The translations under genes were made by a program, and so were the position numbers. A stretch of DNA of 40,743 bases from Pseudomonadota bacterium (GTDB taxonomy: Bacteria; Myxococcota_A; Polyangia; Fen-1088). The notes beneath the pieces were generated by a model. That model was not told where the DNA came from. It was given only the letters and a program-made list of their open reading frames with translations, and did no database searches. Positions 15,005 to 37,409 of this stretch are shown here, one piece after another (positions within the stretch are counted from its first letter, which is position 1; each line of letters starts with the position of its first letter). The stretch covers positions 1 to 40,743 of the forward strand of contig JADGRC010000362.1 in the NCBI GenBank assembly GCA_017881245.1. The letters are read 5' to 3'.

Positions 15005-15732
15005 TGACTGGCCGGGATTTGCGCTCGCTCCGGGCGACCCGTGCCCTCGTCGGCGTGGTTGCGCTGGTCACGTTGTGCGACGAGCGCTTGGGCATCGCCT
15101 CTCCCCCTTCGTCTGCCCAGGGCGCTCGCCCAGTGGGATCCCCGACGGACCGCGCGGAAACCCGAGCGGCGGCGCCACCCGAACCGGCCGGCAAGGCCGA
15201 TAGAGTCGACAAGACGGAGCACCAGGAGCCGCCTGGCAGCTCCCGCGCGGGGATGGTTCCTGATTTGGCGAAGTTGCGCGCGGAATACGATCGCATCCGC
15301 GAGGAGCTGTTCAGGGCCCGGGTGCGCAGTCAGAAAGCCGCCGAGGGTGTCTATCCCTCCAAGCTGGACGCTCGTTTGCGCTGGAAAGGCGGACCAGACT
15401 TCGTCATCCGTAAGGCGCGGTTCCTTCTCGACGGAGCGGAGCTGTGGGATTCGGCCGACCGCGCGCAGACCGACGACTTGATCGAAGTGGCCGAACGAAA
15501 CGTGAAGCCAGGCCCTCACGCCCTGACGGTCCGCTTGGAGATCCACCCCAAGACGGAAACCAAGGGCGGCACCAAGACCGGCGCCGACACACTCGGATAC
15601 ACGTCGGAGCACACGTTCGCGATCGTCGTGGCGCCGACCGGTCGTACACACCTCAGGCTGACCGGCGACGAGGACGGCGATCCACCCAACTACGAAGCCG
15701 CACTACAACTGGAGATCGAGACGGAGAAATGA
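15004..15732 (+). CDS. Small periplasmic protein of the gliding operon (gltK position)
   Basis: 242 residues from a GTG that overlaps the previous TAG by one base. An N-terminal hydrophobic stretch (ALVGVVALVTLC) acts as a signal. The Cys there lacks a proper lipobox residue before it, so lipidation is doubtful. After a disordered charged region comes a helix (DLAKLRAEYDRIREELFRAR) and then a beta domain (FVIRKARFLLDGAELW, HALTVRLEIHPKTETKG, HTFAIVVAPTGRTHLRL) that looks like an Ig-like fold. In Myxococcus the gltA/B/C group also includes a small gene, gltK. Position and size are compatible, but I cannot confirm homology by eye, so no symbol is given. Confidence 0.65.
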   Translation: MTGRDLRSLRATRALVGVVALVTLCDERLGIASPPSSAQGARPVGSPTDRAETRAAAPPEPAGKADRVDKTEHQEPPGSSRAGMVPDLAKLRAEYDRIREELFRARVRSQKAAEGVYPSKLDARLRWKGGPDFVIRKARFLLDGAELWDSADRAQTDDLIEVAERNVKPGPHALTVRLEIHPKTETKGGTKTGADTLGYTSEHTFAIVVAPTGRTHLRLTGDEDGDPPNYEAALQLEIETEK

Positions 15733-17531: not shown

Positions 17532-20500
17532 GGCCGCCCGAGGCCGCGGAGCCGCCGGACGGCCCATCCTCACGACGGTTCGCGTGGGCGCGTGTGCCGC
17601 GCTGCTTCTCGTGTGGCTCGGCGTCGAAGGAGGAGTTTCGGCAGGGTCTGTGCGCCAACCGAGCGAGGACCGGGGCCAGGACCAGGGCCAGGGCGGCCAG
17701 CAGGGCCAAGAGGCAGGGAACAAGGGCCAGAACCGGGGCCCGGGCGAAGGACAAAAGAAGGACGAGGACGTGGATGACACGCGGCCGGAGAGAAGCCTCC
17801 CGGCCGTCGTGGAGAGGGCGATCGCGGCAAAGGAGAAGGAGGTGGCGGGGGCGCGCGCGGAAGGCATTCGCCTGCTCGAGGACTTCCTGCGATCGAGCCC
17901 GAAGTCGCGCGAGACGGCGGAGGCGCTGTACAAGTTGGCGGAGTTGTACTGGGAGGATTCGAAGGCTTCGTATCTGGACAAGATGGGCGCGTACGAACGG
18001 GCAATCGCCGATTGCCGCCGCGATCGGGGGACATGTTCCCACGTGCCACGGCGGGCGCCCCGTCTTGATCTGTCGCAAGCGCAGAACGTGTATGACCGCC
18101 TCATTCGCGAGTACCCGCGCTTTCGCAAGATCGACACCGTCATCTACCTGTACGCTTTTTCGCTACGCGACCAGGGACGGCTCGGTGATTCGGTCAAGTA
18201 CTTCCAAATCATCCTGGACCGGTTTCCGCGCTCCCGATTCATCGCGGACGCGTGGATGGCCGTCGCGGAATTTCGCTTCTACGAACAGCAGGACTACCGG
18301 ACATCGCTGGCGGCGTACGAAAAGGTCCTCGAACACCCGAAGTCGACGCTGTTCTCGCTGGCGCTGTTCAAGACCGCCTGGTGCTATTGGAAGCTTGGCG
18401 ACACAACCAAGTCGGCGCAGCGGTTCAAGGACGTCCTGGATCTGGCGAAGAAGAAGGCCGGCAAGACCATCGCGGAGCAAAAACGCGCCGAGGAGCTGCA
18501 AGGCCAGGCGATGGAATACCTGGTCGAGCTTTTCACGGAGGACGACACCAAGAGCGCGCAGGACGCGTTCGAATTCCTGGCGCAGATTGGCGGTAAGGAA
18601 TACTCGCAGAAGATCTTGGCCAGGCTGGCCCAGACGGTATTCGACCAAACGCGATACGAACGGGCGGCCGAGGCCTATCACTTGCTCATCACCCTGGATC
18701 CGAACGGTGTCGAGGCGCCCGACCACCAGAGGCACGTGGTCGAGTGCCATCAACTTCTCGGTGATGACGCCGCCGCGGTAACGGAAATGCGAAAGCTCGC
18801 CACGGACTACGGACCGCGCGGTGCTTGGGCGGTCGCCAACAAAGATCGCCCCAAGGCGTTGGCTCACGCGCGCCAGATCGCGGAAGAGCAGATTCGCCTG
18901 CTGGCGAGGACCCTTCACGCCGAAGCACAGGCCAGCGAGAAGCTGAACAAAGTGCTCGACAAGGGCCGCTACACGCGCGCCGCCGAAGCCTACGACTTTT
19001 ATCTTGCGACCTTCCCCGACGCACACGACACGGTCGAGCTCCGGTACCTGCGGGCGGACATCCTTTATTTCAAGTTGGGCCGTATGGCCGACGCGGGGAA
19101 TGAATATCTGATCGTCGGCAAGAGCAAGCCGCCCGGCCAGTATCACAAGGACGCCTTGCTGCAGGCGATGACCGCGTTCGAAAAATTGCGTAAACCGGCC
19201 GGTGGCAAACGCGAGATCAGTGAATCGGACCGCAAATTCGCGGAGGCCGCCGACCTCTACGCGACGCTATTTCCCGCCGATAAAGAAATCGTCACGGTCA
19301 TTTTCAAGAACGGTCAGTTCTTCTTCGACTACGGCGACTATGACGAGGCCGTCAAGCGATTCGGCCTCATTGTCGAGGGCCACCCCGACGATCCCAACGC
19401 GGGCGCGGCGGGGGATCGCATCCTGGAGTCCCTCGCCAAGGGCAAGGACTATGAAAACATCGAAAACTGGGCACGACGATTAAAGAAGACGAAAGCCTTC
19501 GCGGCCCCGTCGGAGCAGGAACGCCTGGACCGCATGATCGTCGTGGCGGTGATGAAATCAGGTGAAAAATACGCGGCCGACGGCAAATTCGTCGAGGCGG
19601 CGGGGTTCTTCATGCGTGTCCCCCGCGAATATCCGAGGGACCCAAGGGCCCCGCAAGCGTTACACAATGCAGCGACCATTCTCGAGCGCGGCAAGAAGCC
19701 GGAAGAGGCGGTCGCCGCATACAAGGAGCTGGCCGAGAGGTATCCCCAAGCTGCCGAGGCACCGGACGCTCTGTTCACGGCCGGGCACATCGAGGAAAGT
19801 ATCGCCTCTTATGATCGAGCGGCGCTGCTGTATGAGCAAGTCGTCGCGCGTTTTCCCCAATCCAAGCACGCGGCCGAGGCGCTGCGAAACGCCGGCATCC
19901 TGCGACAAACACTGGGCGAGAACGAGAAGGCCATCCAGCACTTTGCAGACTACGCGCGGCGCTACAAAGACCACGGCGATGCCAAGGAGCTGGCGTTTCA
20001 AGTCGCGGTCGTCCGCGAACGTCAACAGGATTGGAAGAGCGCCGCGCAAAGTTTCGACGAGTACGCCCGCGCCCACCCTGGCGACGGCCGCAATGTCGAA
20101 GCACTGGCGCGCGCCGGTGACGCGTACCTGAAAGCCGGCAACGACGGCAAGGCAAAGGAGGCACTCGCCCGAGCGCTTTCCGGGGGTCGCGGTCGCAAGA
20201 GCGCCGATGGGGACACCCGCTACTGGGCGGCCGAAGCCCGGTATCTGCAGGGCGAGCTCGTGTTTCGCGAGTACGACAAGATCAAAATCGCGGGCAAGCC
20301 CAAGCAACTGGCGCGGGTCCTCGATGAAAAGGCGAAGCTCTTGGAGCAGGCCAAGCAAATCTACCTCGACGCGGTGACCTACCAGTCGCCCGAGTGGGCC
20401 ACGGCCGCGCTGCTTCGGATCGGCCAAGGTTACGAAGCGTTTGCCGGAGCCATGCGCCAGGCGCCCGTACCCAAGGATCTCAGCGCCGAGGAGAAGCAAG

Positions 20501-20748
20501 TGTACCGCGACGAGCTGGAGAAACTGACCGTCGTGATCGAGGACAAGGCCATCGATGCCTACAAGTCGGGCTACGGCAAGGCGCTCGACATCGGCGTCTA
20601 CAACAAGCACACGCAAGAGATCCGTCGCGCCCTTGGCCGCCTCGACGAAGGCAGCTATCCCAAGGAACTGGAAGCACGCGCCGGACTGCGCGCGGGCGAG
20701 CCGCCGTTGCGCATCGGCAGGCTGGAAGAGGTTCGCCGTGACCGATAG
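17509..20748 (+). CDS. gltD: Large gliding-motility TPR protein GltD (AgmU)
   Basis: About 1,079 residues from the ATG at 17509; an ATG at 17515 and a GTG at 17494 are alternatives. It starts inside the 3' end of gltC. A signal peptide is followed by a low-complexity Gln/Gly/Glu-rich stretch (about residues 55-90, GQDQGQGGQQGQ). The rest is an almost continuous array of TPR-like helical pairs, for example ALYKLAELYWEDSKASYLDK, YRTSLAAYEKVLEHP and ERAAEAYHLLITLDPNGVEA. Myxococcus AgmU/GltD is a TPR protein of similar size found in the periplasm and tracking with motility complexes. Order before gltE, gltF and gltG supports the assignment. The protein probably spans or scaffolds the periplasmic part of the machine. 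Confidence 0.85.
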   Translation: MSMTTTDRAARGRGAAGRPILTTVRVGACAALLLVWLGVEGGVSAGSVRQPSEDRGQDQGQGGQQGQEAGNKGQNRGPGEGQKKDEDVDDTRPERSLPAVVERAIAAKEKEVAGARAEGIRLLEDFLRSSPKSRETAEALYKLAELYWEDSKASYLDKMGAYERAIADCRRDRGTCSHVPRRAPRLDLSQAQNVYDRLIREYPRFRKIDTVIYLYAFSLRDQGRLGDSVKYFQIILDRFPRSRFIADAWMAVAEFRFYEQQDYRTSLAAYEKVLEHPKSTLFSLALFKTAWCYWKLGDTTKSAQRFKDVLDLAKKKAGKTIAEQKRAEELQGQAMEYLVELFTEDDTKSAQDAFEFLAQIGGKEYSQKILARLAQTVFDQTRYERAAEAYHLLITLDPNGVEAPDHQRHVVECHQLLGDDAAAVTEMRKLATDYGPRGAWAVANKDRPKALAHARQIAEEQIRLLARTLHAEAQASEKLNKVLDKGRYTRAAEAYDFYLATFPDAHDTVELRYLRADILYFKLGRMADAGNEYLIVGKSKPPGQYHKDALLQAMTAFEKLRKPAGGKREISESDRKFAEAADLYATLFPADKEIVTVIFKNGQFFFDYGDYDEAVKRFGLIVEGHPDDPNAGAAGDRILESLAKGKDYENIENWARRLKKTKAFAAPSEQERLDRMIVVAVMKSGEKYAADGKFVEAAGFFMRVPREYPRDPRAPQALHNAATILERGKKPEEAVAAYKELAERYPQAAEAPDALFTAGHIEESIASYDRAALLYEQVVARFPQSKHAAEALRNAGILRQTLGENEKAIQHFADYARRYKDHGDAKELAFQVAVVRERQQDWKSAAQSFDEYARAHPGDGRNVEALARAGDAYLKAGNDGKAKEALARALSGGRGRKSADGDTRYWAAEARYLQGELVFREYDKIKIAGKPKQLARVLDEKAKLLEQAKQIYLDAVTYQSPEWATAALLRIGQGYEAFAGAMRQAPVPKDLSAEEKQVYRDELEKLTVVIEDKAIDAYKSGYGKALDIGVYNKHTQEIRRALGRLDEGSYPKELEARAGLRAGEPPLRIGRLEEVRRDR

Positions 20749-21922
20749 AGTTCCGGCAACGCCGGCGCGGCTTCCCTGGTTGCCCTGGGTGCTGTGTTTG
20801 CCGATGGCCATGGCGTGTGGGCACCGGGCGGCTGCGCCAGGATCGACGCCCAAGCCCATCGTCGCCGCCGTGTTGCCCCAGGTTCGTCCCGAGGCAAGGA
20901 GCGAATTCGAAGCGGCGCTGCGCTCGCTGAAGCTTGGCAAGCAGCAACATGCCGACGCGCGCGCACACTTGGTCAAGGCGACCGAGCTCGATCCCAAGTT
21001 CTTCGAAGCGTGGCACAACCTGGGCTGGTTGGACGCGACCCGAGGCAACTTCGCCCGCGCGGCGGCCTCGTTCCGAAAGGCGCTCGACATCCAACCCGGG
21101 TCGCGCGAAACCGCGCTGGCGCTCGCCGAGACTTGGCGCCGCGCGGGGTACTCCAAGAAGGCCGCGAAGCTGTACGGCGATCGGTTGGCGGCCGAGCCTC
21201 AAGATATGGAGTTGCGCAACCGTTACATCCAGGTGTTGCGCGACGGAGGTGATCTGGAAGATGCCCTGCGTGAAACCAAGATTGCCCTGGGACAGGCCGG
21301 AGAAAACGTTTCGCAAACCGTTTTGGCGTACAACTCGCTTGGACTGATTTACTATAAAATGAACAAGCTGGACCTGGCCGAGACCGCGTTGCACAAGGCG
21401 CTGGCTCTCGATGGGCAGAGTGCCTTCGTTTGGAACAATCTGGGTCTGGTGGCATTTGCGCGCGGGCGCGATCAAGAGGCCTTTTTGAATTTTCAAAAGT
21501 CATCCGAGATCGATCCCAAATATGTCGAGGCGCGCCTCAATAAGGCGATCATCTTCATGGATTGCGGCGACTACAAACACGCACGGTCGGAATTGCAGCG
21601 AGCCGTGGACGCGAGTCCGGGAGACGCCGACGCGTACGTCGCGTTGGGCGTGGCGGCGCGTGGCGACGGCAAGTTGGATGAATCGCGTCGCGCCTACGAA
21701 AAAGCTCTGGAGATCGAGCCGGAGCACGCGCCCGCCCTTTACGACCTCGGAATCCTCTACATGGAGTTTGACAAGGACCCGACTAAGGCGCAGGAGTCCT
21801 TCGCGCAGTTCTTGGCCAGCGCCGACGACGACGATCCCCGGCGCAAGGACGCCACCCAGCGCATCCAGGATCTTATCGCGAGCCAGAAAAGCGCCGGGAA
21901 GTCCGAGGGCAAACGGAAATGA
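20738..21922 (+). CDS. gltE: Gliding-motility TPR lipoprotein GltE (AglT)
   Basis: 394 residues from a GTG with a good ribosome site (GAAGAGG, about 6 bases upstream); it overlaps gltD by 11 bases. The N-terminus ends in a lipobox (PMAMAC), so it should be lipid-anchored, probably in the outer membrane. At least six TPR units follow, for example FFEAWHNLGWLDATRGNFAR, NSLGLIYYKMNKLDLAETAL and LYDLGILYMEFDKDPTKAQE. AglT/GltE of Myxococcus is a TPR protein needed for adventurous gliding and encoded next to agmU, matching the order here. The stop overlaps the gltF start (ATGA). Confidence 0.85.
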   Translation: MTDRVPATPARLPWLPWVLCLPMAMACGHRAAAPGSTPKPIVAAVLPQVRPEARSEFEAALRSLKLGKQQHADARAHLVKATELDPKFFEAWHNLGWLDATRGNFARAAASFRKALDIQPGSRETALALAETWRRAGYSKKAAKLYGDRLAAEPQDMELRNRYIQVLRDGGDLEDALRETKIALGQAGENVSQTVLAYNSLGLIYYKMNKLDLAETALHKALALDGQSAFVWNNLGLVAFARGRDQEAFLNFQKSSEIDPKYVEARLNKAIIFMDCGDYKHARSELQRAVDASPGDADAYVALGVAARGDGKLDESRRAYEKALEIEPEHAPALYDLGILYMEFDKDPTKAQESFAQFLASADDDDPRRKDATQRIQDLIASQKSAGKSEGKRK

Positions 21923-22383
21923 CACTGTCCGGTGGTCTCCTCGCCTTGGCGATCGCGCTCGTGACCGCGCAAGGACCTCGCGTCGCCGGCGCCAGGCGCG
22001 CGAAACCTTCCCCCGTCCGGGTCGCGGCCGAAAAGCGAGTGAACCAACCACTGCCACCACCTTCGTCAACCCGCTCCCGGCCACCCACCTCGAAGCACGC
22101 TAGCAGCGCGGCCACGCCGCCGCCGCCGGTGTCGGCCATGCCTGGTGACAGCGCGGACGGCGCGTTGCCGGCGGCCCCGGATTCGGCGGTCGGTTCAACC
22201 ACGACAAAACCCGCAAAAACCAAGGTCTATTCCTTCGGTGCCATGGACGTCGAAGGCAAATTGAAGACGCCGCAACTCCTCTACTTCCTGAACCGGGTGA
22301 AGCTGGAATTGGACATGTCGGCCCCGGATCACCGTTCTTTCATGAAGGAGCTCGCCAAAACTGCCGAGGATCCAAATCTCTAG
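21919..22383 (+). CDS. gltF: Gliding-motility protein GltF
   Basis: 154 residues; the ATG overlaps the gltE stop. A hydrophobic N-terminus (LSGGLLALAIALVTAQG) is followed by a Pro/Ala/Ser-rich, probably unstructured middle. A compact conserved-looking C-terminal segment (VYSFGAMDVEGKLKTPQLLY, FLNRVKLELDMSAPDHRSFM) follows. The assignment rests on size, position between gltE and the PglI-like gene, and this C-terminal segment. The biochemical role of GltF is poorly known; it is counted among the envelope components of the gliding machine. Confidence 0.75.
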   Translation: MTLSGGLLALAIALVTAQGPRVAGARRAKPSPVRVAAEKRVNQPLPPPSSTRSRPPTSKHASSAATPPPPVSAMPGDSADGALPAAPDSAVGSTTTKPAKTKVYSFGAMDVEGKLKTPQLLYFLNRVKLELDMSAPDHRSFMKELAKTAEDPNL

Positions 22384-22401
22384 AGCGAAGCGTCTGTCGT
22401 T

Positions 22402-23766
22402 ATGACTCCTACATCAATGTTACAGGTCGCGCTGGTTTGGCAGGGCAAAATCCTGACGTACCGGCTATGCGGTCCCAGGCAATCGGTGACGATCGGTCCC
22501 ACGCCGCGCGCCACCTTGGTCACGCCACCGGTTCCCGGCACCAAGGACCGGTTCGCCGTGTTGGTTCCCGCGAAACCGCGCGGGCACTATCGGCTGCGAC
22601 TGACCACCGCGTTCGGTGGTGAGCTCACCGTCAAGGGCGAAAAGCGCGACGTTGCCGACGCGCTGGCGGCCGGTATTCCGTCCAAGCGCGACCCGAGCAT
22701 TCGCGAGATCGATCTCGAACCCGGCGACAAAGCCCGCCTGACCCTGGCGGACGCCGAAGGGTTGCGAATCGAGATCCGTTACGTCGAACCGCCGGCCGTA
22801 ATTCCGCGTCCAAAGGTGTCGCGCACGGAGCCGTTCTTCGCGCGTACGACGGCGCTCACCACGGCGGTCCTCGGGATCTTCGTCGCCGCCGTCTTGGTTT
22901 TCGCCCCCGAGGACGACCCGCCCAGGATGGTCCTGACCGCCGAACGCGTCGCCAAGATCTTGCCTCCCGCGCCGCCACCGCTGCCTCCGCCCCCGAGCGC
23001 GAAGAAGGACGACGAGAAGACCAAGGAAGAGTCCGGTCAGATGAAAAAGGCCAAGGATGAAAGGGGCAAACTGGGTCGTCACGACGCTCCTGCCAAGGAC
23101 ACCATCGTGACCAAGGGTGAAAAGGACATCTTGCGCGACAAGGTGTCCAAGGTCGGGCTGCTCGGTTTGATCGGAAAAGAGCGCCCCCAAGGGTCCGGGC
23201 TGGCCAAGCTTTTCGCCGAGGAGCGCGACGTCGAACAAGCCATCGCCGGCATGCAGGGCGCGCCGGTCGTGGCGGGGCGAGGATCGGGTGGACTATCCAC
23301 GACGGGCGCGGGCCTGGGCGGCGGCGGGACCGGCCTTGGCCACCTGTACGGCGCGGGTGACGTCGACACGGGAGGCCGGACGTCGCGCGGCCGCGGTCGT
23401 GGCCCGACACTGGTCAGCCGCAAGGAACGCGAGGTCAGGTTGGACATCGCGGCCGGCAACGTCGACGAGGGCGGGGGCCTCACACGGGAACAGGTGGAAC
23501 GCGTCGTGCGCGCTCACCAGAACGCGATCAAGTTCTGCTACGAAAAAGAGCTGCAAAGGAAGCCGACGTTGGTTGGCAAGATCGAGGTCTACTGGATAAT
23601 CGTTCCGGATGGCTCGGTCGAGAAATCCAAGATCGCCATAACCACCATGGAGGACGGCGCCGTCGAAGGTTGCATCGCCCGTCAGGTGAAACAGTGGGTC
23701 TTTCCCAAGTCCGACGGCCGCACCGTGGTTCAGAAGTTCCCGTTCGTGTTCAAGGGAGGCGCGTGA
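22402..23766 (+). CDS. gltG: Gliding-motility inner-membrane protein GltG (PglI), FHA-like plus TonB-like
   Basis: 454 residues. The N-terminal cytoplasmic part (about 5-130) has an FHA-like beta pattern (ALVWQGKILTYRLCGPRQSV, VTIGPTP), though classical phosphopeptide-binding residues are not obvious. One membrane helix lies at about 149-168. A Pro-rich segment (PPAPPPLPPPPS), a Lys/Glu-rich stretch and a Gly-rich region then span the periplasm. The C-terminal 95 residues (GLTREQVERVVRAHQNAIKF, CYEKELQRKPTLVGKIEVYW, ending FPFVFKGGA) form the AgmX/PglI-type TonB-like domain. In the gliding model such proteins couple proton-motive energy from the AglRQS motor to periplasmic partners. The gap from gltF is 18 bases, the only real gap among the core genes. 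Confidence 0.85.
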   Translation: MTPTSMLQVALVWQGKILTYRLCGPRQSVTIGPTPRATLVTPPVPGTKDRFAVLVPAKPRGHYRLRLTTAFGGELTVKGEKRDVADALAAGIPSKRDPSIREIDLEPGDKARLTLADAEGLRIEIRYVEPPAVIPRPKVSRTEPFFARTTALTTAVLGIFVAAVLVFAPEDDPPRMVLTAERVAKILPPAPPPLPPPPSAKKDDEKTKEESGQMKKAKDERGKLGRHDAPAKDTIVTKGEKDILRDKVSKVGLLGLIGKERPQGSGLAKLFAEERDVEQAIAGMQGAPVVAGRGSGGLSTTGAGLGGGGTGLGHLYGAGDVDTGGRTSRGRGRGPTLVSRKEREVRLDIAAGNVDEGGGLTREQVERVVRAHQNAIKFCYEKELQRKPTLVGKIEVYWIIVPDGSVEKSKIAITTMEDGAVEGCIARQVKQWVFPKSDGRTVVQKFPFVFKGGA

Positions 23767-28163: not shown

Positions 28164-29606
28164 CTACTGCGGCGTCTCGCTCGCCGGCGACGGATTGACC
28201 GTCCCGGTCGGCTGGGTGGTCTCCACGGGCTCCGGCCTGGCGTCGCTCGTCTCCACTCGAGCGAAAACGCCCTCGTCCCGCGCGTCCGTCGACATCTCCA
28301 CCGGCGCCTGCCAGCGTTCCACCGGCCGGGTGGTCGCCGTCAGGGAAACATAAAACCAGGTCTGGCGTTGATGAAACGTGACCTTGTCGGCCCGCACACG
28401 AGGCGCGAGGGCGGAACAACGCAGCCCCGTTTCGACAATAAGACTGTGGGAAACGAGATGCCGAACCGGCAAAGCGACGTCGACCAGGGTCTCGTCTGAA
28501 TTGGCGGCGGGGCCAACGATGGGTGACTTTCTCAAGCTGGTGGCGAAGGTTCCTTCCAAACCGATCGTCCAATCCGGCTCCAACAGCACCTGCGTACGGA
28601 CGACCCCGATGCCGCGGGGACCCGCGACTCGCAGGAACGGATCCACGTAGTAATCGAGCGCAGCGCTCGTCATTCCGCGCCAGGAGACACCCCGGCGTGT
28701 CAGGAACAGCCCATTTAACTCCACGCTGCCGACTGGCCTCACGAGAGATCCCCCTTGCGGTGTTGTTCCCGTCGCCGCTCCGCCCGGAAGTACCACCGGC
28801 GTCCTGCCGCGATCCTCCGCATAGCTAAAGCCGCCCGACAAGCGCAGCTCCGTGCTCCGGGCCAGCCGCGTCCGCCAGCCCACTTGCGGCGTCACGGCGA
28901 GGACCTCGATGCCGTGATCGAGAGTCCGATCCGACAAGCCGAGGGTGAGCAACAAAGAATCGCGGCGCGACACGCGCGCGATTCCGGAGGCATCGAGCCG
29001 AACGTTCGTCTGGCTGAACGATCCGAAAGGATTCTGCATCTCGGCCATCATCGTGTTTCCCAGCGTCTTGCGCCGTTCCACGTCGAGCATGGTCTCGTAT
29101 CGCCAAACGCGATCCGCGTCCCAGCGCAGTCCCGTCCCCGCCGAGACGGCGAAGATCTTCAGCACCGGAGGCAATACCGTGTTCGGTATGATCTGCGTCA
29201 GCGACTGATAGTCGGCCTCTCCGTATGAGGCGGCGGCACGTTCGATGAAGCGCAGGTTCGGCGTGGCGTCGAGGGTGACGGACAAGGTCGCTGTGTGCAA
29301 GACCAGCGTCTTGCTGGCGCCGAACGCATTCGGCCGCCGCCACAACAGCCGCGGGCTGTAATCCAGAAGAACCTGTCGAGCCGGGTTCTGGTCCTGGAGC
29401 TCGCCCATCGGTGCCAGCACCCCCACTACGGTCCAGTGGGGATCCGTGTCCAGATGGAACTCCTGGCCCGGCGGCAAATTGGTGGGCGGCACCTGATTTC
29501 GCTGAAACGGCGCCTGCCCGACGCGGCCTTCGGCGGAGAGGCCGGCAAACGCACCGAACTCGCCCGACAGGAAGAGCAGTCCCGCCAGCGGCACAAGCCC
29601 CAGCAT
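28164..29606 (-). CDS. Large outer-membrane beta-barrel in the exopolysaccharide locus (Wzp/EpsX-like candidate)
   Basis: 480 residues with a signal peptide (MLGLVPLAGLLFLSGEFGAF). After a short N-terminal part the sequence alternates barrel strands with polar loops (TATLSVTLDATPNLRF, DSLLLTLGLSDRTLDHGI, STELRLSGGFSYAEDRGR, SLIVETGLRCSALAPR, TWFYVSLTATTRP). It is long enough for about 18 strands. The C-terminus is not aromatic but a Pro/Thr/Glu-rich tail of about 40 residues. It starts 5 bases after the short Wza-like gene stops. Myxobacterial exopolysaccharide systems are known to pair a short Wza with an 18-stranded barrel; this pair fits that pattern by position and size. Confidence 0.7.
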   Translation of the reverse strand: MLGLVPLAGLLFLSGEFGAFAGLSAEGRVGQAPFQRNQVPPTNLPPGQEFHLDTDPHWTVVGVLAPMGELQDQNPARQVLLDYSPRLLWRRPNAFGASKTLVLHTATLSVTLDATPNLRFIERAAASYGEADYQSLTQIIPNTVLPPVLKIFAVSAGTGLRWDADRVWRYETMLDVERRKTLGNTMMAEMQNPFGSFSQTNVRLDASGIARVSRRDSLLLTLGLSDRTLDHGIEVLAVTPQVGWRTRLARSTELRLSGGFSYAEDRGRTPVVLPGGAATGTTPQGGSLVRPVGSVELNGLFLTRRGVSWRGMTSAALDYYVDPFLRVAGPRGIGVVRTQVLLEPDWTIGLEGTFATSLRKSPIVGPAANSDETLVDVALPVRHLVSHSLIVETGLRCSALAPRVRADKVTFHQRQTWFYVSLTATTRPVERWQAPVEMSTDARDEGVFARVETSDARPEPVETTQPTGTVNPSPASETPQ

Positions 29607-29611
29607 GTTCC

Positions 29612-30235
29612 TTATTCGGCGACGACGACGTCCCCGTCGCGCAAGCGAAACGGGGCAATCCGCGGCTCTGGCCCGGTCAATTCCTGGGCCTTGAAGCGGA
29701 TGCGCAGATCTCTTTCGCCCACTCGAACGACGAAGATACGGTCACTCGACGCGAAGACCGTCAGCCACCCCGCCGCGGCCAAGGCGGCCGTCACGCTTCG
29801 ATCCCGCGTCAGCTCGTAAGGGCCCGGCGCCTTGACCTCGCCGACCACGTTCACGCGCGCCGGGGCCTTGCGGGCAACGGAGACCATGACCCGCGGATTG
29901 ATGACGACGTTGGTCAGTCGAATCTGTAAAAACTCGGCGACTTGCGTTGGGGTCTTTCCCTCCACGAAGATGTTCCCCAACGTCGGGTGCAGGTAACCGC
30001 CGTCCTCGCGAAGCACGAATTCACCCGACAGGGGCGCCTGGTCCTGAACCTGAACCACAATCGTGTCGCGCGCATGAATCACCGCTTCGGGTTCCGCCGC
30101 GACGGCGGGCAGGTCCCGCGCCCAAATGAAGGGACGCTCCGTCGCGCACCCCGCCACGGCCAGCATCAGCAAGGTGGCAATTCCCAACGCACCAAGCCGA
30201 ACCGACCGGCGCCGGACCAAACGTTCGCTATTCAT
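29612..30235 (-). CDS. Short Wza-like polysaccharide export lipoprotein
   Basis: 207 residues from ATG 30235. A basic n-region and hydrophobic core end in a lipobox (LAVAGC). A polysaccharide-export (PES) domain follows (IVVQVQDQAPLSGEFVLRED, GGYLHPTLGNIFVEGKTPTQ, VVINPRVMVSVARK) and then one SLBB-like domain (RVNVVGEVKAPGPYELTRDR, VTAALAAAGWL, FVVRVGERDLRIRF). It stops there. The further SLBB repeats and the C-terminal amphipathic helix that forms the outer-membrane pore of E. coli Wza (about 380 residues) are absent. It therefore cannot cross the outer membrane alone and probably works with the barrel encoded immediately downstream. Confidence 0.85.
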   Translation of the reverse strand: MNSERLVRRRSVRLGALGIATLLMLAVAGCATERPFIWARDLPAVAAEPEAVIHARDTIVVQVQDQAPLSGEFVLREDGGYLHPTLGNIFVEGKTPTQVAEFLQIRLTNVVINPRVMVSVARKAPARVNVVGEVKAPGPYELTRDRSVTAALAAAGWLTVFASSDRIFVVRVGERDLRIRFKAQELTGPEPRIAPFRLRDGDVVVAE

Positions 30236-30269
30236 CGGATGCCCCCATCTTTCAGCTGGTGCTGCGTGA

Positions 30270-32135
30270 CTAGCGTGCATGCGGAGGTCCACGATAGCCG
30301 AGCGACGTCGATGGACTGCTGACGATCCGGCGCCCCTCGCGAAACGCTATTGCGATGGCGGCCGCTACCAGGCCGACAAACAGTCCCAGCAAGGATCGCA
30401 ACGCCAATATCTTCAGAGTCTTGGACTTCTCCAAACGAGGCGACGTGATGATGTCATAGCGAGATTCGGCCGAGACTCGCTCGATGCTCAGCTGCAATTC
30501 CGCTTTCTTCAACCTCTCGAAAAGCTGACTGTGCAAGCGATTGGTGGCTTCCTGCGTGTGATTCATTTCTTGCACGCGCTCCTCGACCCGGGGCAAATCC
30601 CCCACCACCTTACGAACTTGGCTCAGGCTTTTTTCCGTGTCGTCCAAGTCGCTGCGAGCGGCGTTCAGTTGAGCCTGCAGCGTCTGGACGCGATTCTCAA
30701 TAGTTACCAGACCGGCATTCGATTCCCGATCCACCTGGGTGGTTTCCGCGTGCATCTCATCGTTGATCAGTTTCTCGATACGGTTCTTTTCGTCCTTGAG
30801 CTGCCGCACCTCCGGATGTCCGTCCGCCAAGCCAGAGGCGTAAGCCTCGCTAAGCTTCCTGTTGATGGCGGCCAGCGAGTCCCGATAGACCTGGGACGAT
30901 TGACGCCGTGACTGGGCGAGCGGAGATTCCGTCGCCAATTGGCGCCGCTCGGCCGCCAGATCACCCTGAAGACGCCTGACCTGTGCCATTAGCTCCGCGC
31001 GGCGACTCTCTAGCTGAAACCGGCTCGAATGCGTCTGCAGGGACTCCTCGGGCAATCGATCGGCGTTGGCCTGGCGAAAACGCGATCGGTCAGCGGCGAT
31101 CTGCGCGAGATCTTTCTCCACCGACTTCAACTGATTCCGCAGGAATTCGGCCTCGGCGCTGAAGACGCGTAAAGCCTTCTTGATCTCGGACTGCAAATAG
31201 TTGCGCAGGTGAGCATCCAGAAATACGTCTGGCGCCGGTCGCCCGCGATCAAACCAACCATCGTGGTATGTGGCGCGGTACGTGTGCTCATCGAGTGGGT
31301 CGAACTTCAGGCGGCTCGTTATGGAAGCGATCCGCACCTCATCCGGGTCCACGCCATCGAGAGTCAACAGGGTCGATCGGACCAGCTCCGGATGTGTGAA
31401 CGCGTGCTCGGCACCCCTGAAGAACTGCAACGAATCGTCGGTGACTCTTTCCGGCTCGACGGGGTTGGATTTCATCTGCGGCTGCAGCTTCACCTCGCAA
31501 AACGCGGCGCGGGCCGGAGGAAACACTAAGATCGACGCCAATCCGACGCCGGCTCCGGTGGCCAACAACGCGGCGATCAGCCGGAAGTGGTGTCCCATGA
31601 ACCGATAGATCGCCACGATCCCATAAACCACCTCGGCGAACGACGCGCTCTCCTCTTCATCGGTGTTAACGGATGGTTGGAACTGCGTGGACGACAGGCG
31701 CGGTGGGGGCTGCGGAAACCGCATCATCGCGCCCCCGCCGGTCGCGCGGGACGACCACTTTTGCGGAGAAATCAGAGCGACTGTGGCGTCGGACCGACTA
31801 CCCATTACGAACTTGAACTCAATTGTCCCCACCAGCACGAGATCGCCATGCTTGAGCCTGGCGCTCTTGACCCGGTCACCACCGACAAAGGTGCCGTTCG
31901 TCGAATTGAGGTCCTCGATCTCGAATCCGTGGCTGCCGTTGATGATCCGTGCGTGGCTTCCAGACACCGATGGATCGCCGACGTGTACATCCGCATCGTC
32001 GTTGCGCCCGATGACGGTGGTATTGCGCTCAAGCGGATAGACCTTGCCCGGCTGATCCCCGCTCACGGCGATCAAGAACGCGTGTGCCTCGCCACCGAGC
32101 ACAGCTTCATCGAGATCGCCGTCCAGATCACTCAT
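30270..32135 (-). CDS. FHA domain fused to a Wzz/GumC-type chain-length protein
   Basis: 621 residues. The N-terminal FHA domain (about 22-110) shows classical phosphothreonine-binding residues in TTVIGRNDDADVHVGDP, SVSGSHARI and DLNSTNGTFVGG. A linker follows, then a membrane helix at about 184-206, then a long periplasmic coiled coil with LRNQLKSVEKDLAQIAADRS and LERLKKAELQLSIERV-type heptads. A C-terminal membrane helix (LRSLLGLFVGLVAAAIAIAF) closes the protein. Wzz/GumC proteins set polymer length and link synthesis to Wza export. There is no Walker-type BY-kinase domain, so the usual tyrosine-kinase control is missing and an FHA domain takes the cytoplasmic position. It lies 34 bases before the Wza-like gene. 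Confidence 0.85.
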   Translation of the reverse strand: MSDLDGDLDEAVLGGEAHAFLIAVSGDQPGKVYPLERNTTVIGRNDDADVHVGDPSVSGSHARIINGSHGFEIEDLNSTNGTFVGGDRVKSARLKHGDLVLVGTIEFKFVMGSRSDATVALISPQKWSSRATGGGAMMRFPQPPPRLSSTQFQPSVNTDEEESASFAEVVYGIVAIYRFMGHHFRLIAALLATGAGVGLASILVFPPARAAFCEVKLQPQMKSNPVEPERVTDDSLQFFRGAEHAFTHPELVRSTLLTLDGVDPDEVRIASITSRLKFDPLDEHTYRATYHDGWFDRGRPAPDVFLDAHLRNYLQSEIKKALRVFSAEAEFLRNQLKSVEKDLAQIAADRSRFRQANADRLPEESLQTHSSRFQLESRRAELMAQVRRLQGDLAAERRQLATESPLAQSRRQSSQVYRDSLAAINRKLSEAYASGLADGHPEVRQLKDEKNRIEKLINDEMHAETTQVDRESNAGLVTIENRVQTLQAQLNAARSDLDDTEKSLSQVRKVVGDLPRVEERVQEMNHTQEATNRLHSQLFERLKKAELQLSIERVSAESRYDIITSPRLEKSKTLKILALRSLLGLFVGLVAAAIAIAFREGRRIVSSPSTSLGYRGPPHAR

Positions 32136-32306: not shown

Positions 32307-33722
32307 TCAGTAAGCGCCCTGGTTCTTCTTGGAACCGAGCATGGTCATGAAGATGATCTTCAAGTCGAGGGCCAGGTACCACCCGGTGATGTAGTCGAGG
32401 TCGTAGCGGACACGCTGCTCCATCTTCTCCAGCGTGTCCGTTTCGCCGCGCAGCCCATTGACCTGCGCCCAGCCCGTGATGCCGGGTTTCACCTTGTGGC
32501 GCAGCATGTAACCCTGAATCAGAGACCGGTAGGCTTGGTTGTGGGCGACGGCGTGCGGTCGCGGACCGACGATCGACATCTTGCCCGTGAGTACCTGAAG
32601 GAACTGCGGAAGCTCGTCGAGTGACGTCCTGCGCAGGAAGCCTCCGATGGGCGTCAGTCTCTTGTCACCCCGCTTAACCTGTTCGATCTCGGTGCCGTCC
32701 TCGCAGACCGTCAGCGTCCTAAACTTCAAGACCCTAATTTCCTTGGCGTTTAGCCCGAAGCGACGCTGTCTGAAGAACACCGGACCGGGGGACGTCATCT
32801 TGACCGCGATAGCCACCGCGATCATCGGAAGAGCGATTAGCGCGAGGATAATCGTGCCGAGGACCAAATCCTCCGCACGCTTCAGCCACCCGGCGACGCC
32901 GTGAAACGGCGAATCGTAGATGCTGACCACGGGAATGTTGGCCACCTGATGCCACCGCCCGTGCATCAGATCGTAGGTGAAGAAGTCCGCGGCCAGATAG
33001 ACGGTGGCGGTGGTGTCGGCAAGCGCCTTCAAGACTTCCCCGATACGCCCCTCGGCCCGCAAGGGCAAGCCGATATAGATGATGTCCAGCTTGCCAGCCC
33101 GCGCGTCCTCGACCAGTTGATCGGACGTGCCGACGAACTGACAATGCTGTCGTGAAAAACGACGCCGTCGCCTGGGTGAACGATCGTCGTACAGCCCCGC
33201 CAGCCGCATACCAAGCCACGGCCGGTCCACGATGCTATCGCACAGCCTTTCGCTGATCTTCGTCGCCCCGAGGATGGCCACTGAGCGTGTATTGCGACCC
33301 TTGCTGCGAAGGTATCGCAATAGGACGCGGGCGCCCATGCGCCATGCGCCGAGCAGAATCGGCGTCGACAAGAACCACCCCACGGAAACGGCGCGGGAAA
33401 AACTGGCGCTGGTCTTGGTGATGAACCCCAGCGCGAACAACATGATCGGAACGGCGAGCCAAGTCGTAAACGCCGCCTCCAGTTCCCGAGCGATGCGTTC
33501 GGACCGCCACGGGCGGTAAAGGCCCCGCCATTCCGCCAGAAGGTTGAAGGCAACCAGCGCGATTGCCGTGGCGGCCGTCATGGGCGCGCGCCACTGGTCC
33601 CGATAGAACACGCACGCGATGTAATGCGCGACCGCGATTGACAGGAGATCGGCGAGCCGCTGGAAGGCGCTCAGCAGCTCCTCGTTTCCCCGCAGGAAAC
33701 CTCTCGAAGGATTTCGGCTCAT
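32307..33722 (-). CDS. Polyprenyl-phosphate sugar-1-phosphate transferase (exopolysaccharide initiation)
   Basis: 471 residues. The N-terminal half has about four membrane helices and a nucleotide-binding-like domain (SVAILGATKISERLCDSIVD). A further helix (DLVLGTIILALIALPMIAVA) leads into the catalytic bacterial sugar transferase domain with family motifs FFRQRRFGLNAKEIRVLKFR, RRTSLDELPQFLQVLTGKMS, IVGPRPHA and PGITGWAQVNGLRGET. The enzyme transfers a sugar phosphate from a UDP-sugar to undecaprenyl phosphate at the inner membrane, the first step of repeat-unit assembly. It resembles WcaJ/WbaP and the Myxococcus EpsZ type; sugar specificity is not readable. The ATG at 33722 follows an AT-rich region with an inverted repeat. 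Confidence 0.92.
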   Translation of the reverse strand: MSRNPSRGFLRGNEELLSAFQRLADLLSIAVAHYIACVFYRDQWRAPMTAATAIALVAFNLLAEWRGLYRPWRSERIARELEAAFTTWLAVPIMLFALGFITKTSASFSRAVSVGWFLSTPILLGAWRMGARVLLRYLRSKGRNTRSVAILGATKISERLCDSIVDRPWLGMRLAGLYDDRSPRRRRRFSRQHCQFVGTSDQLVEDARAGKLDIIYIGLPLRAEGRIGEVLKALADTTATVYLAADFFTYDLMHGRWHQVANIPVVSIYDSPFHGVAGWLKRAEDLVLGTIILALIALPMIAVAIAVKMTSPGPVFFRQRRFGLNAKEIRVLKFRTLTVCEDGTEIEQVKRGDKRLTPIGGFLRRTSLDELPQFLQVLTGKMSIVGPRPHAVAHNQAYRSLIQGYMLRHKVKPGITGWAQVNGLRGETDTLEKMEQRVRYDLDYITGWYLALDLKIIFMTMLGSKKNQGAY

Positions 33723-33930: not shown

Positions 33931-36255
33931 CTAATGAGGCGAAGCGGCGTCGGGAAAGTTGGAAGGACGCGCCGGTACCGACTGCGGTCGGGAGAGCAAC
34001 AAATTGGAAACAAAGTATCCGATCGTGAGGGTCACGGGTAGAGCCAAAAGGGCCGAGACAATGACCACGTTCCAAGTCCGCCAGAAGTTCTTTCTCCGAG
34101 GCCCTGCCGTCAAGAAAATCGTGCGTGAAGGTAGCGCTCGATTTGCGCCGAGCTTGGGGGTCGGCGAGTTCTTGTAGGAGTCAAGGACAGCGGTGGCCGC
34201 CGCGGGCCGCGATCCGAAGGGCGTGTTGACGCGACCTGACGACATGGGCGTGTTGACTCGACCCGGCGACATGGGCGTGTTGACGCGTCCTGGTGACATG
34301 GGCGTGTTGACCCGTCCTGGTGACATCGGTGTGTTGACCCGACCCGATGACATCGGTGTGCTGACGTGCCCAGAGGGAGCCTTTTGGCCGGGAAACATCA
34401 GCTGAATCCGTCTGCGCAGCTCAACAAGGGTATCGCCCGACTCTCGCCGGACCCACTGGCCCACCTCCGTGGTGGAGGCGAGCAAGTCTTCGTTGGACGC
34501 GACGCGAAACAGATCTCGCGCCATCTCGTCCGCCGTGGCATAGCGGCCCTCCTTCGAGCGAGAGAGGGCCTTGAGGCAGATCTCGTCAAGGGATGCCGAA
34601 GCCCCGAAGGCGCTTGGAGGTGGAATCTTCTTCTTCAAAACCTTGATGATGGTTTCGTCGTAGCTCTCCCCGGCGAACAGCTTCTGACCGGTCAGCGCGT
34701 TCCACATCAGGACCCCGGTCGAGAACACATCGGTTCGGGCATCGAGTGGCTCGGCTCGCAGTTGTTCGGGCGACATATAGGCCGGCTTTCCAGTCACGAC
34801 CCGCTTTGGATCGACGGCCTGGCCCTCTCCAGTAAAGCTGGCGCTGCCGAAGTCGGTCAGACGAGCCACGCCGTCAACGCCGACCAAGACATTTTGGGGA
34901 GACACGTCGCCATGCACCAATCCGAGCGGAGTCCCGTTGCCATCCGCGAGCGTATGCGCACGTTCCAGGCCGCGCAGCACATCCAGCAGAATCGAAACGA
35001 CCACGCGAAAGGGAGCACGCCGGTCATCGGAAACGAGATCCGACAGGCTCGTCCCCTCGACATAGTCCAGGATCAGAAACGGCTGGTCCTTGTACGAGCC
35101 CACGTCGAGAACGGTCTGGAGGTTCGGATGGCCGAGGAGGGAGCCGACGTGCGCCTCGCGCTTGAAAGATCGAACCGCCTCTTCCCGTTGCGCGGAATAC
35201 TGGCGGACCACTTTCAGCGTGAACAAGCGCTGAAATCCGCTCTCTCCGGCGCGCCTGCAGACGTAGATTGACCCCATCCCCCCTTGGGCGATGCGGGTCG
35301 CGACCTCGTAGGCACCCACGCGAAACGGAACGGGCGCGCTCGGCACGGGGCCACCCGCGGCCCTTGGCACCCCATCCGATACTGACGCGCGACCGGATGC
35401 AAAAGGCGGATCCGGCATTGGGGGCGATCCCTTGACGACCACGGTGGGACCCGAGGAGCTGGCCGGGGAAGTGTCGGACGCCCCAGCGTCCGCGACCGTG
35501 GAAGTCGTCGCCTCCGCAGCCGGCGGTGGGCTCGCGAAAAGCTCGGCGGTCATCGCCGGTATCCAGAAGGCCGTCACGTTCGGTCGAAACGCCGGCTGGT
35601 TCGGCTTCGACGTCGCGGGTCCCGCCGCCTGCGGCTCGGTCGACGGTTGGTCGAGTGCTTGCCGCGTCGCATCCGGAGCAGCCGGCGCCCCCCACGCGGA
35701 GCCAGCCTCCACCCGACCGACCACCTCGGCGGCGCCTCCCAACGCCGGGGCCGTGGCGTTGCGCCTGGTCTCTTCCTCCGCCAGGGCCGCGCTGGTCAGC
35801 GTGGTTGCCGCCAGTTCCAAATAATCGTCGATGGCCTTGGTCAGAGCGCTCGGGCCGTCCGTTGAGAACGGGGCCTCGTCCGTTTCGGCTGCCGCGGGGC
35901 GCGGCGGCTCCGGCTCGAACGTGAGGCCGCCCGTCAACTGAATCAGAATGCCGCGATCTCGCAGCGAACGCAGATACTTGTGGACCACGGGGCCGGACAT
36001 CGTCGACAGGCGGACCACTTCCTCAACGGAGCGCTGGCCGTCCACCAGCGACAACAATTCTCGCTCCTCGTCACGCAAGGTCGGAAGCGCGATGGTTCCT
36101 CCCGAGGTCAAGGAGACCCCCCGCCCCGTTCCCATCCGTCCGCTGTCCTCGGCACTTCCCGCGTGCATCGTGACCCGAGAATTCAAGGTCAACACCACGT
36201 CCGAGTCGAGGACGCCGTCGGCCTCCACACCGCTTTCCCGAATTTTCGTGTTCAT
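33931..36255 (-). CDS. Membrane-anchored Ser/Thr protein kinase with S/T-P repeats
   Basis: 774 residues from ATG 36255, supported by GGAG 6 bases upstream; a GTG at 36267 is less well spaced. Residues about 30-110 look like a winged-helix domain (LPTLRDEERELLSLVDGQRS, VVHKYLRSLRDRGILIQL). A long Pro/Ala/Thr linker leads to the kinase domain: Gly loop RIAQGGMGSIYV, Lys in LFTLKVV, catalytic loop VHGDVSPQNVLV, DFG in LTDFGSASF, and PAYMSPEQLRAEP. The usual HRD Arg is Gly, so it is a non-RD kinase but keeps the catalytic Asp. After the kinase come six 9-residue repeats and one membrane helix near the C-terminus (VVIVSALLALPVTLTIGYFV). It is upstream on the same strand as the exopolysaccharide genes. 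Confidence 0.9.
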   Translation of the reverse strand: MNTKIRESGVEADGVLDSDVVLTLNSRVTMHAGSAEDSGRMGTGRGVSLTSGGTIALPTLRDEERELLSLVDGQRSVEEVVRLSTMSGPVVHKYLRSLRDRGILIQLTGGLTFEPEPPRPAAAETDEAPFSTDGPSALTKAIDDYLELAATTLTSAALAEEETRRNATAPALGGAAEVVGRVEAGSAWGAPAAPDATRQALDQPSTEPQAAGPATSKPNQPAFRPNVTAFWIPAMTAELFASPPPAAEATTSTVADAGASDTSPASSSGPTVVVKGSPPMPDPPFASGRASVSDGVPRAAGGPVPSAPVPFRVGAYEVATRIAQGGMGSIYVCRRAGESGFQRLFTLKVVRQYSAQREEAVRSFKREAHVGSLLGHPNLQTVLDVGSYKDQPFLILDYVEGTSLSDLVSDDRRAPFRVVVSILLDVLRGLERAHTLADGNGTPLGLVHGDVSPQNVLVGVDGVARLTDFGSASFTGEGQAVDPKRVVTGKPAYMSPEQLRAEPLDARTDVFSTGVLMWNALTGQKLFAGESYDETIIKVLKKKIPPPSAFGASASLDEICLKALSRSKEGRYATADEMARDLFRVASNEDLLASTTEVGQWVRRESGDTLVELRRRIQLMFPGQKAPSGHVSTPMSSGRVNTPMSPGRVNTPMSPGRVNTPMSPGRVNTPMSSGRVNTPFGSRPAAATAVLDSYKNSPTPKLGANRALPSRTIFLTAGPRRKNFWRTWNVVIVSALLALPVTLTIGYFVSNLLLSRPQSVPARPSNFPDAASPH
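34213..34374. repeat. Six 27-bp tandem repeats in the kinase gene
   Basis: Six contiguous 27-bp units encode, in protein order, SGHVSTPMS, SGRVNTPMS, three PGRVNTPMS and SGRVNTPFG. The inner units are nearly identical at DNA level while the outer ones have drifted, a usual sign of slippage or recombination. Each has a Thr-Pro and most a Ser-Pro at the junction. Confidence 0.95.
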
Positions 36256-36430
36256 GCTGGGCTCCACTTCTCCGCCCGACTCGGCCTGATCATCGACAAG
36301 CGATGGACGACAACACCCAGGCGTTTCGTTTTCTGCTTGGCGAACGCTTCGACCGCGTATCTTGCATCATATTCACGGCCGCGGCCAAGGCCACAGCCAC
36401 GTTATGAATCCAAATCGCGCCAGCACCGCT
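36256..36430. other. Intergenic region between the kinase and the phosphopantetheinyl transferase
   Basis: Both flanking genes are on the minus strand. The 175 bases should contain the kinase promoter and the transferase 3' end. A GGCCGCGGCC palindrome occurs near 36381, but no clear terminator or ORF is seen. Confidence 0.4.
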
Positions 36431-37150
36431 TCAGCGCGAGACAACTACCGCCGTCCGAACCAGCTCTTCGTCCAGGCAAAACCGTCCCGTCCAACAGCCG
36501 ACCCCCGGTCCCAGGGCCGGGGCCCCCGCCACACGCATCGCGAATGCGCCACGCGGGATGTCCAGATCCACCTCAACATCGTGAAAGCCGACCATTTGCC
36601 CAGTGAGGGGGAACTGGGCTTTGTAAAAGGATTCCTTGGCCGAAAAGATGACTTTCGCCAGCAATCCTCGGCGCTCGGCATCTTGGGCGCCCAACCAGGC
36701 CCGCTCGGCCGTTGTCAGGACGAATCGCCATAGATGCACGGGAAGCCCATCGGCTTTTTCGGCATCGAGCCCGATCGTCAACGTGGTATCCGCTCGCGCT
36801 ACGGCCACCGCGCAATAGCCCCCCGGAACGTCACCCGTATGCGTCAGGGAGCCGACAATGCCGGGCGGCCACTGCGGCGCCCTTCGGGCGTCGTTCCGTA
36901 AGATGAACGCATCGATGCCCAGGCGCGCCAGGGCCCGGCGAGCGCACAGCCGGCCCGTGGCGAACTCCACCCGCCGCCGCGTGACGGAATCGGCCACCTG
37001 CACCGCCTCCTCTGGTGGCATCGGGGGGGGATCGGGGGGCAGGCGTGCCTCCTCAATGATCACCGGCCAAGGGGCAAGCATCCGCGCAAGTGAAGAAAGA
37101 GCGGCGGCCGAAACATGTTCATCAACGTATTTCTGCCGCTTCGTCACCAT
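36431..37150 (-). CDS. 4'-phosphopantetheinyl transferase (EntD-like)
   Basis: About 239 residues. The family motifs are present: RRVEFATGRLCARRALARLG in the N-terminal half, GSLTHTGDVPGGYCAVAVA, the Mg-binding GLDAEKADGLP, and the C-terminal FSAKESFYKAQFPLTG. The enzyme moves the phosphopantetheine arm of CoA onto a Ser of carrier proteins, activating NRPS, PKS or fatty-acid carriers. The closeness to the NRPS start 3 kb away suggests it serves that cluster. Start is uncertain: ATG 37150 is used; ATG 37081, nearer the expected family N-terminus, also fits, and neither has a strong ribosome site. Confidence 0.9.
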   Translation of the reverse strand: MVTKRQKYVDEHVSAAALSSLARMLAPWPVIIEEARLPPDPPPMPPEEAVQVADSVTRRRVEFATGRLCARRALARLGIDAFILRNDARRAPQWPPGIVGSLTHTGDVPGGYCAVAVARADTTLTIGLDAEKADGLPVHLWRFVLTTAERAWLGAQDAERRGLLAKVIFSAKESFYKAQFPLTGQMVGFHDVEVDLDIPRGAFAMRVAGAPALGPGVGCWTGRFCLDEELVRTAVVVSR

Positions 37151-37409
37151 GTCCAACAATCTCGAAGAGGTGGCGAAGAGTAAAGTGGAACCCAAGCACC
37201 CAGGGTGGCTTTCGCGCGGCGCGGCTGCCTCGTCACGACCACCGACGGGACGGCGCGACGGGGCGAGACTGCATCGCATCGGGCCCGGAGCTCCCGCCGA
37301 TCTCCAGAACCCAGAACAGAGATGCAAAAGAGCGTGTTAAAGTGACGCGGCGTGTATCCCGAAGATTCCAATTGGAGACCTAGGAGACTAGCGAAGGAGT
37401 TCCATCCAC
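37151..37409. promoter_or_regulatory. Divergent promoter region of the natural-product genes
   Basis: These 259 bases lie between the phosphopantetheinyl transferase (minus) and the asnB operon (plus). An AAGGAG 10 bases before the asnB ATG is the ribosome site. A TTAAAG string at 37338-37343 could be part of a promoter. I cannot place -35/-10 boxes firmly. Confidence 0.45.

Follow-up and report, generated by a model that had tools for sequence, protein, structure and literature searches.

An FHA domain fused to a polysaccharide co-polymerase and inherited with a Ser/Thr kinase clade suggests a polymer switch without the usual tyrosine kinase

The control of secreted-polysaccharide polymerisation in bacteria has been described as tyrosine phosphorylation by a BY kinase or, recently, as a phosphorylation-independent scaffold provided by a pseudokinase. 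In Wzc and CapAB, ring assembly of the polysaccharide co-polymerase (PCP) is set by the BY kinase via tyrosine phosphorylation. The stretch of DNA analysed here (40,743 nucleotides, hereafter the window) encodes a PCP that begins with an FHA domain, and a Ser/Thr kinase is encoded close by. This raises the question of whether such a co-polymerase is controlled by phosphothreonine in place of a BY kinase, and the sequences examined make phosphothreonine/FHA control the best reading. Related loci are designated L and their genomes G.

The fusion protein and its exopolysaccharide locus

The open reading frame of the FHA-PCP has zero internal stops and encodes, in this order, an N-terminal FHA domain, a linker and a Wzc-like PCP part (Table 1). 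The FHA domain matches PF00498 with 67.7 bits (cut-off 20.7, residues 40-103), and its phosphate-pocket residues are all kept (G43, R44, S58, H61, T79, N80 and G81), in agreement with a preliminary description that had recognised a complete domain from its GR, SxxH and NG residues. No residue that a phosphothreonine reader should have is missing, and a capacity to bind phosphothreonine is predicted. The same description had called the remainder Wzz, which is right as remote homology: the label "Wzz-like PCP" is correct, and in the window copy it is based on structure and distant relationship. The protein has no match to the Pfam Wzz model (PF02706) and scores 66.6 bits against the chain-length determinant model TIGR03007, under that model's cut-off of 278.85; in homologue L074, PF02706 matches at the expected place with 23.3 bits, slightly under its cut-off. 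In the AlphaFold model (mean pLDDT 76.9) long helices at residues 184-204 and 573-606 flank the coiled-coil domain, so that the predicted arrangement, two transmembrane helices either side of an extended periplasmic domain, is that of PCP-2 (Wzc-like) proteins. Foldseek matched the PCP part to Wzc (9r68, E 9e-9; 7nhr, E 4e-7) and the FHA part to GarA-type FHA domains (E 4e-10).

In this exopolysaccharide operon the gene order, on the minus strand, is Ser/Thr kinase, WcaJ-type transferase, FHA-PCP, short EpsY-like outer-membrane export (OPX) protein and outer-membrane beta-barrel. The OPX gene overlaps the PCP gene by 23 bp and is encoded alongside it, as expected of a PCP-2 co-polymerase; its product scores 114.4 bits against the EpsY model NF041843, short of the cut-off of 320. 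The AlphaFold model of the barrel has 17 long strands, compared with 18 in the EpsY/EpsX translocon, and AlgE is not among the Foldseek matches listed. An EpsX-like barrel gene adjoins the PCP gene in 15 loci. Overall, the parts list of the window locus resembles the Myxococcus xanthus eps pathway. No flippase or polymerase was identified inside the window; the related locus L035 encodes a pair of acyl-transferases (MBOAT, AlgX) and matches Wzy_C weakly, and a Wzx/Wzy-type pathway, initiated by WcaJ, is therefore likely.

Other genes were noted in passing. A 4'-phosphopantetheinyl transferase gene lies in or beside the polysaccharide locus in the window (36431-37327) and in L030, L031, L032, L034 and L089, and in the kinase-less branch it stands directly before the PCP gene. 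Elsewhere the window encodes a protein with an IgGFc-binding-like domain (PF17517; 11399-13312, minus strand) and a run of TPR proteins (15444-23766, plus strand) upstream of a protein of 454 residues (22402-23766), which has no Pfam match and looks TonB/AgmX-like.

Table 1. Positions of the FHA-PCP, its parts and the neighbouring genes in the window
Feature	Position	Strand	Basis or remark
EpsX-like outer-membrane beta-barrel, probable partner of the short OPX	28164..29606	-	AlphaFold; Foldseek to outer-membrane barrels
Short EpsY-like OPX protein	29612..30292	-	PF02563, PF10531; 226 aa
FHA-PCP fusion protein	30270..32135	-	621 aa; ORF, Pfam/NCBIfam, AlphaFold and Foldseek, conserved family
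PCP module	30318..31586	-	AlphaFold and Foldseek to Wzc; short cytoplasmic tail, without BY kinase
PCP TM2	30318-30419	-	AlphaFold model
PCP periplasmic coiled-coil domain	30420-31523	-	AlphaFold model
PCP TM1	31524-31586	-	AlphaFold model
Candidate phospho-acceptor and FHA-ligand motif D-A-T118-V-A-L	31773..31790	-	Directly after the FHA domain
FHA domain	31794..32084	-	Residues 18-114; PF00498; nearest solved relatives GarA and Bdellovibrio DgcB FHA
WcaJ-type undecaprenyl-phosphate glucose phosphotransferase, initiating enzyme	32307..33722	-	TIGR03023, 513.9 bits, over cut-off
Partner Hanks-type Ser/Thr kinase	33931..36267	-	778 aa in the longest frame; PF00069, 115.2 bits
Kinase transmembrane helix near the C-terminus	34012..34068	-	Hydropathy scan
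Juxtamembrane motif S-R-T716-I-F-L, candidate autophosphorylation site and FHA ligand	34111..34128	-	Just before the kinase membrane helix
GRVNTPMSP-type repeats, kinase juxtamembrane linker	34210..34374	-	Sequence
Kinase catalytic domain	34474..35319	-	Residues 317-598

Distribution of the fusion and of its partner kinase

A search for the fusion and its linkage to Ser/Thr kinases had been suggested in the preliminary description, and it recovered both. Of 29 high-scoring PCP homologues read to the N-terminus, 27 carry the FHA domain; the two that have lost it (L030 and L031) belong to one genus, and L088 was excluded from these counts because a contig end cuts its N-terminus. Four family groups within the class have the fusion. 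In the window's family, the only one of its order in this collection, 9 of 18 genomes have relatives of the PCP part. Across the class, a threshold of E<=1e-8 gave such relatives in 27 of 318 genomes, and the few with the lowest scores are fragments or distant matches. A sample of the phylum (379 genomes) gave full-length matches of at least 480 bits in this class only, and none of the other matches opened in that sample has an FHA domain, these PCPs having either a fused BY kinase or neither module. In the tree, a branch with full support (100/100) sets the FHA-PCPs apart. A scan of contigs yielded just one relative, from the same genus, and an unrelated FHA match. As the architecture recurs across many independently assembled genomes, the fusion is not an assembly artefact.

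Variants of the architecture were also seen. The pocket is degenerate in L032-L034, L074, L075, L087 and L089, where the domain itself is retained. At L030:8508-11069 (minus), L031:1419-3968 (minus), L032:8823-11324 (plus) and L074:4597-7167 (minus) a single open frame encodes both PCP and OPX, joined by a lipobox-like segment (e.g. LLLVLTMAGGCAHEP), all four in the branch that has a degenerate or lost FHA domain and no kinase. The PCP gene at L093:3981-5944 (G118) is split over two frames, by a frameshift or an assembly error, and its FHA domain and linked kinase look intact. In the window's own genome, close relatives of the window FHA domain (L002, L205, L209 and L212) are apparently fused to GGDEF-like sequence, as in DgcB, and are a possible source of the module.

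The Ser/Thr kinase that had been reported 1.8 kb upstream on the same strand is indeed present, the WcaJ-type transferase gene lying between. A Ser/Thr kinase adjoins the FHA-PCP, or is one gene off as in the window, in 12 loci. In L028, L029, L035 and L077 the kinase gene is directly upstream; the spacing is 56-150 bp in some loci, and the two genes of L077 share 4 bp. The FHA pocket is intact in all 12 kinase-adjacent loci, and a kinase is adjacent in none of the nine loci with a degenerate pocket or no FHA domain, several of which are on short contigs (Fisher p 0.003 over loci, 0.005 over genera). FHA degeneration maps to about three events on the tree, and a tree-corrected test of the same association found three independent pairs in the expected or a neutral direction, too few for significance.

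The 12 linked kinases form one clade (100/100), apart from 33 others, 31 of which are from the window's own genome. All 12 keep the catalytic Lys, HxD, Asn and DFG without variation, with the arginine of HRD replaced, and the partner kinase is apparently catalytic. When 20 genomes were searched for the clade, members scored 410-503 bits, with no other kinase above 350. Counted over genomes, most of them incomplete assemblies, 15 of 18 with an intact FHA-PCP have the clade versus none of six with only a degenerate or lost FHA domain (Fisher p 6e-4). It includes unlinked members where adjacency is missing (G111, G112 and G295, and also G119, whose FHA domain is cut off), and the three intact-FHA genomes without a clade match, G002, G092 and G102, are about 70%, 89% and 71% complete. 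The unlinked kinase of G295 has the lowest clade score (410 bits) and no juxtamembrane motif, and may not be a true orthologue. These patterns suggest a Ser/Thr kinase clade that is dedicated to the FHA-PCP and inherited together with it, pointing to a polymer switch without the usual tyrosine kinase.

Candidate phosphothreonine sites

Two threonine motifs were spotted by eye before any testing; the controls and the unlinked orthologues are separate data. The first, T[VIML]x[LIV], typically D-[AS]-T-V-x-L-P, follows the FHA domain within 40 residues in 15 of 20 intact-FHA proteins (missing near the domain in L078, L079, L083 and L092); shuffling gives an expectation of 1.55, and none of 5000 shuffles reached 15. 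It was found in one of seven degenerate-FHA proteins, and after one of 25 other FHA domains of the same genome (Fisher p 6e-7 versus 15 of 20). The second, S.T[IMTSV].[LIV], precedes the kinase membrane helix in 8 of 12 linked kinases and none of 55 paralogues; L035, L077, L080 and L093 do not have it in exact form. Unlinked orthologues fetched afterwards have it in three of three cases (SRTSLL, SMTMML and SQTMMI), G295 not being counted. The FHA domain of Bdellovibrio DgcB reads phosphothreonine in its own tail and has been solved with that tail, EKpTSIV, the pThr and the hydrophobic +3 residue, a valine, occupying pockets with the same S-T-N residues (PMC6733907). Because they share this register (pThr and a hydrophobic +3 residue), the linker and juxtamembrane T-phi-x-L motifs are plausible candidate ligands of the window FHA domain.

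The preliminary description had offered both the repeats and the juxtamembrane region of the kinase as ligands. The GRVNTPMSP repeats were not seen in the other linked kinases and were rejected as the ligand, whereas the juxtamembrane proposal gains from the recurrence of S-x-T-phi-x-L in most linked kinases. Motifs of the type G-[RK]-T-x-x-P, sometimes repeated, were also observed before the FHA domain at the N-termini of L078, L079, L081-L085 and L093; these belong to one family (f17), and the motifs are in a position like that of the N-terminal pThr of GarA, OdhI and DgcB.

We consider it rather probable that the FHA module replaces the BY kinase in the control of the PCP. The membrane-anchored, dedicated Ser/Thr kinase would phosphorylate the T-phi-x-L threonines at two places, the juxtamembrane segment of the kinase itself and the PCP linker that joins the FHA domain to the membrane helix. 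The pThr bound by the FHA domain would belong to its own protein, to an adjacent PCP protomer or to the kinase, and this contact would determine how the PCP ring assembles and, through it, polymerisation and export of the polymer. More tentatively, the FHA domain of one protomer may bind the phosphorylated linker of its neighbour, or its own, and so do the ring-assembly job of the BY kinase and its tyrosine tail.

The juxtamembrane motif could instead serve docking, the FHA domain mainly holding the autophosphorylated kinase (SRpTIFL) close to the export machinery. The kinase would then have other targets there, for example WcaJ, glycosyltransferases or the flippase, and the PCP would not be switched. 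The presence of the juxtamembrane motif in linked kinases, with none in paralogues, and the four loci with the kinase gene directly upstream are consistent with this, as is the control of capsule synthesis by PknB beside CapAB in Staphylococcus aureus (PMC6441080). We regard this reading as unlikely, since docking on its own leaves the conserved threonine motif in the PCP linker (15 of 20) unexplained.

Control of the co-polymerase and comparison with known systems

The FHA-PCP has no BY-kinase domain and stops shortly after the second membrane helix. No BYK-like open reading frame below E = 1 was found by hmmsearch, with all filters off, in the 29 FHA-PCP neighbourhoods, and no BY-kinase match exceeded the model cut-off in the window's genome. 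Nothing credible having turned up in any neighbourhood, a hidden nearby BY kinase was rejected, and the wide co-occurrence of the fusion with BY kinases in one locus, which the preliminary description had named as the observation that would count against its proposal, did not appear. Genomes of the same family have ordinary Wzc-type BY kinases elsewhere. The FHA-PCP is like Escherichia coli Wzc and S. aureus CapAB (PCP-2a/2b) in the pair of membrane helices that flank its periplasmic coiled-coil domain and in its cytoplasmic, putatively phospho-regulated module, and like Wzc in having an OPX partner. It differs in the module itself, an N-terminal FHA domain plus a Hanks kinase as opposed to a C-terminal BY kinase with a tyrosine tail.

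PCPs without a BYK domain are known in M. xanthus EpsV/EcpK and Caulobacter crescentus HfsA/HfsB, for which a pseudokinase has been proposed as scaffold (PMC12004946), so that doing without a BY kinase is no novelty in itself. This qualifies the preliminary proposal that Ser/Thr-kinase control has taken the place of BY-kinase control, the core of which gains much support: the fusion is conserved, the kinase clade tracks the intact FHA domain and no BY kinase was found in the PCPs or their neighbourhoods. Like EpsV, the FHA-PCP has a short OPX and a beta-barrel in its locus; unlike EpsV/EcpK and HfsA/HfsB, it combines an FHA domain with a Ser/Thr kinase that is apparently catalytic. The EpsY/EpsX composite translocon (PMC9601211) has the same succession of short OPX gene and beta-barrel gene and a long coiled-coil PCP, whereas several FHA-PCP relatives have the OPX fused to the PCP.

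It is conceivable, then, that the PCP still uses an EcpK-like BY pseudokinase scaffold encoded elsewhere, as with EpsV/EcpK, the FHA domain being an extra localisation module. EpsV and HfsA are BYK-less PCPs with just such partners, EcpK is not encoded next to epsV (PMC12004946), and the EpsY/EpsX-like parts of the window locus resemble the eps pathway. We judge this improbable, less likely than docking: no BY pseudokinase was found in the FHA-PCP loci, although a distant one could escape such a search, EcpK being divergent and devoid of Walker motifs, and the co-inheritance of the kinase would be left unexplained. It is very improbable that the FHA domain binds an unphosphorylated partner or is a structural spacer with no phospho-control; the seven loci that retain the domain despite a degenerate pocket would fit, but a spacer needs no pocket, yet the kinase-linked loci keep all of its residues. 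Chance adjacency, to be expected at perhaps one locus in ten by our estimate for a kinase within a few kb in a genome of 6.17 Mb with 85 kinase and 30 FHA matches, is hardly credible and was rejected on the kinase tree and the presence/absence profile, as all 12 adjacent kinases come from one clade, the presence of the clade matches FHA integrity, and the motifs are shared.

Phosphothreonine control of the PCP would also have parallels among FHA proteins. The GarA/OdhI type is the best match of the window FHA domain in sequence and fold and is switched by Hanks-kinase phosphorylation; unlike the FHA-PCP, GarA and OdhI are soluble regulators of metabolic enzymes. The FHA domain of DgcB (FHA-GGDEF) is likewise close in sequence and structure, but the output of DgcB is a diguanylate cyclase and its tail is N-terminal to the FHA domain, whereas the output in the window is a co-polymerase. 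The open-licence full texts searched, with subscription papers outside the search, contain no description of an FHA-PCP fusion. Ser/Thr-kinase input to polysaccharide synthesis is already known, S. aureus PknB restraining capsule synthesis (PMC6441080), but not via an FHA domain in the PCP.

The analysis singles out R44 and S58 of the FHA domain, T118 of the PCP and T716 of the kinase, and the relatives that have lost both the FHA pocket and the kinase are natural controls. If the proposed reading is true, the pairing of a conserved FHA-PCP with a kinase of its own would add a third way of controlling polymerisation, and it would link biofilm-matrix production to the Hanks-kinase signalling that is abundant in these myxobacteria-related soil bacteria.
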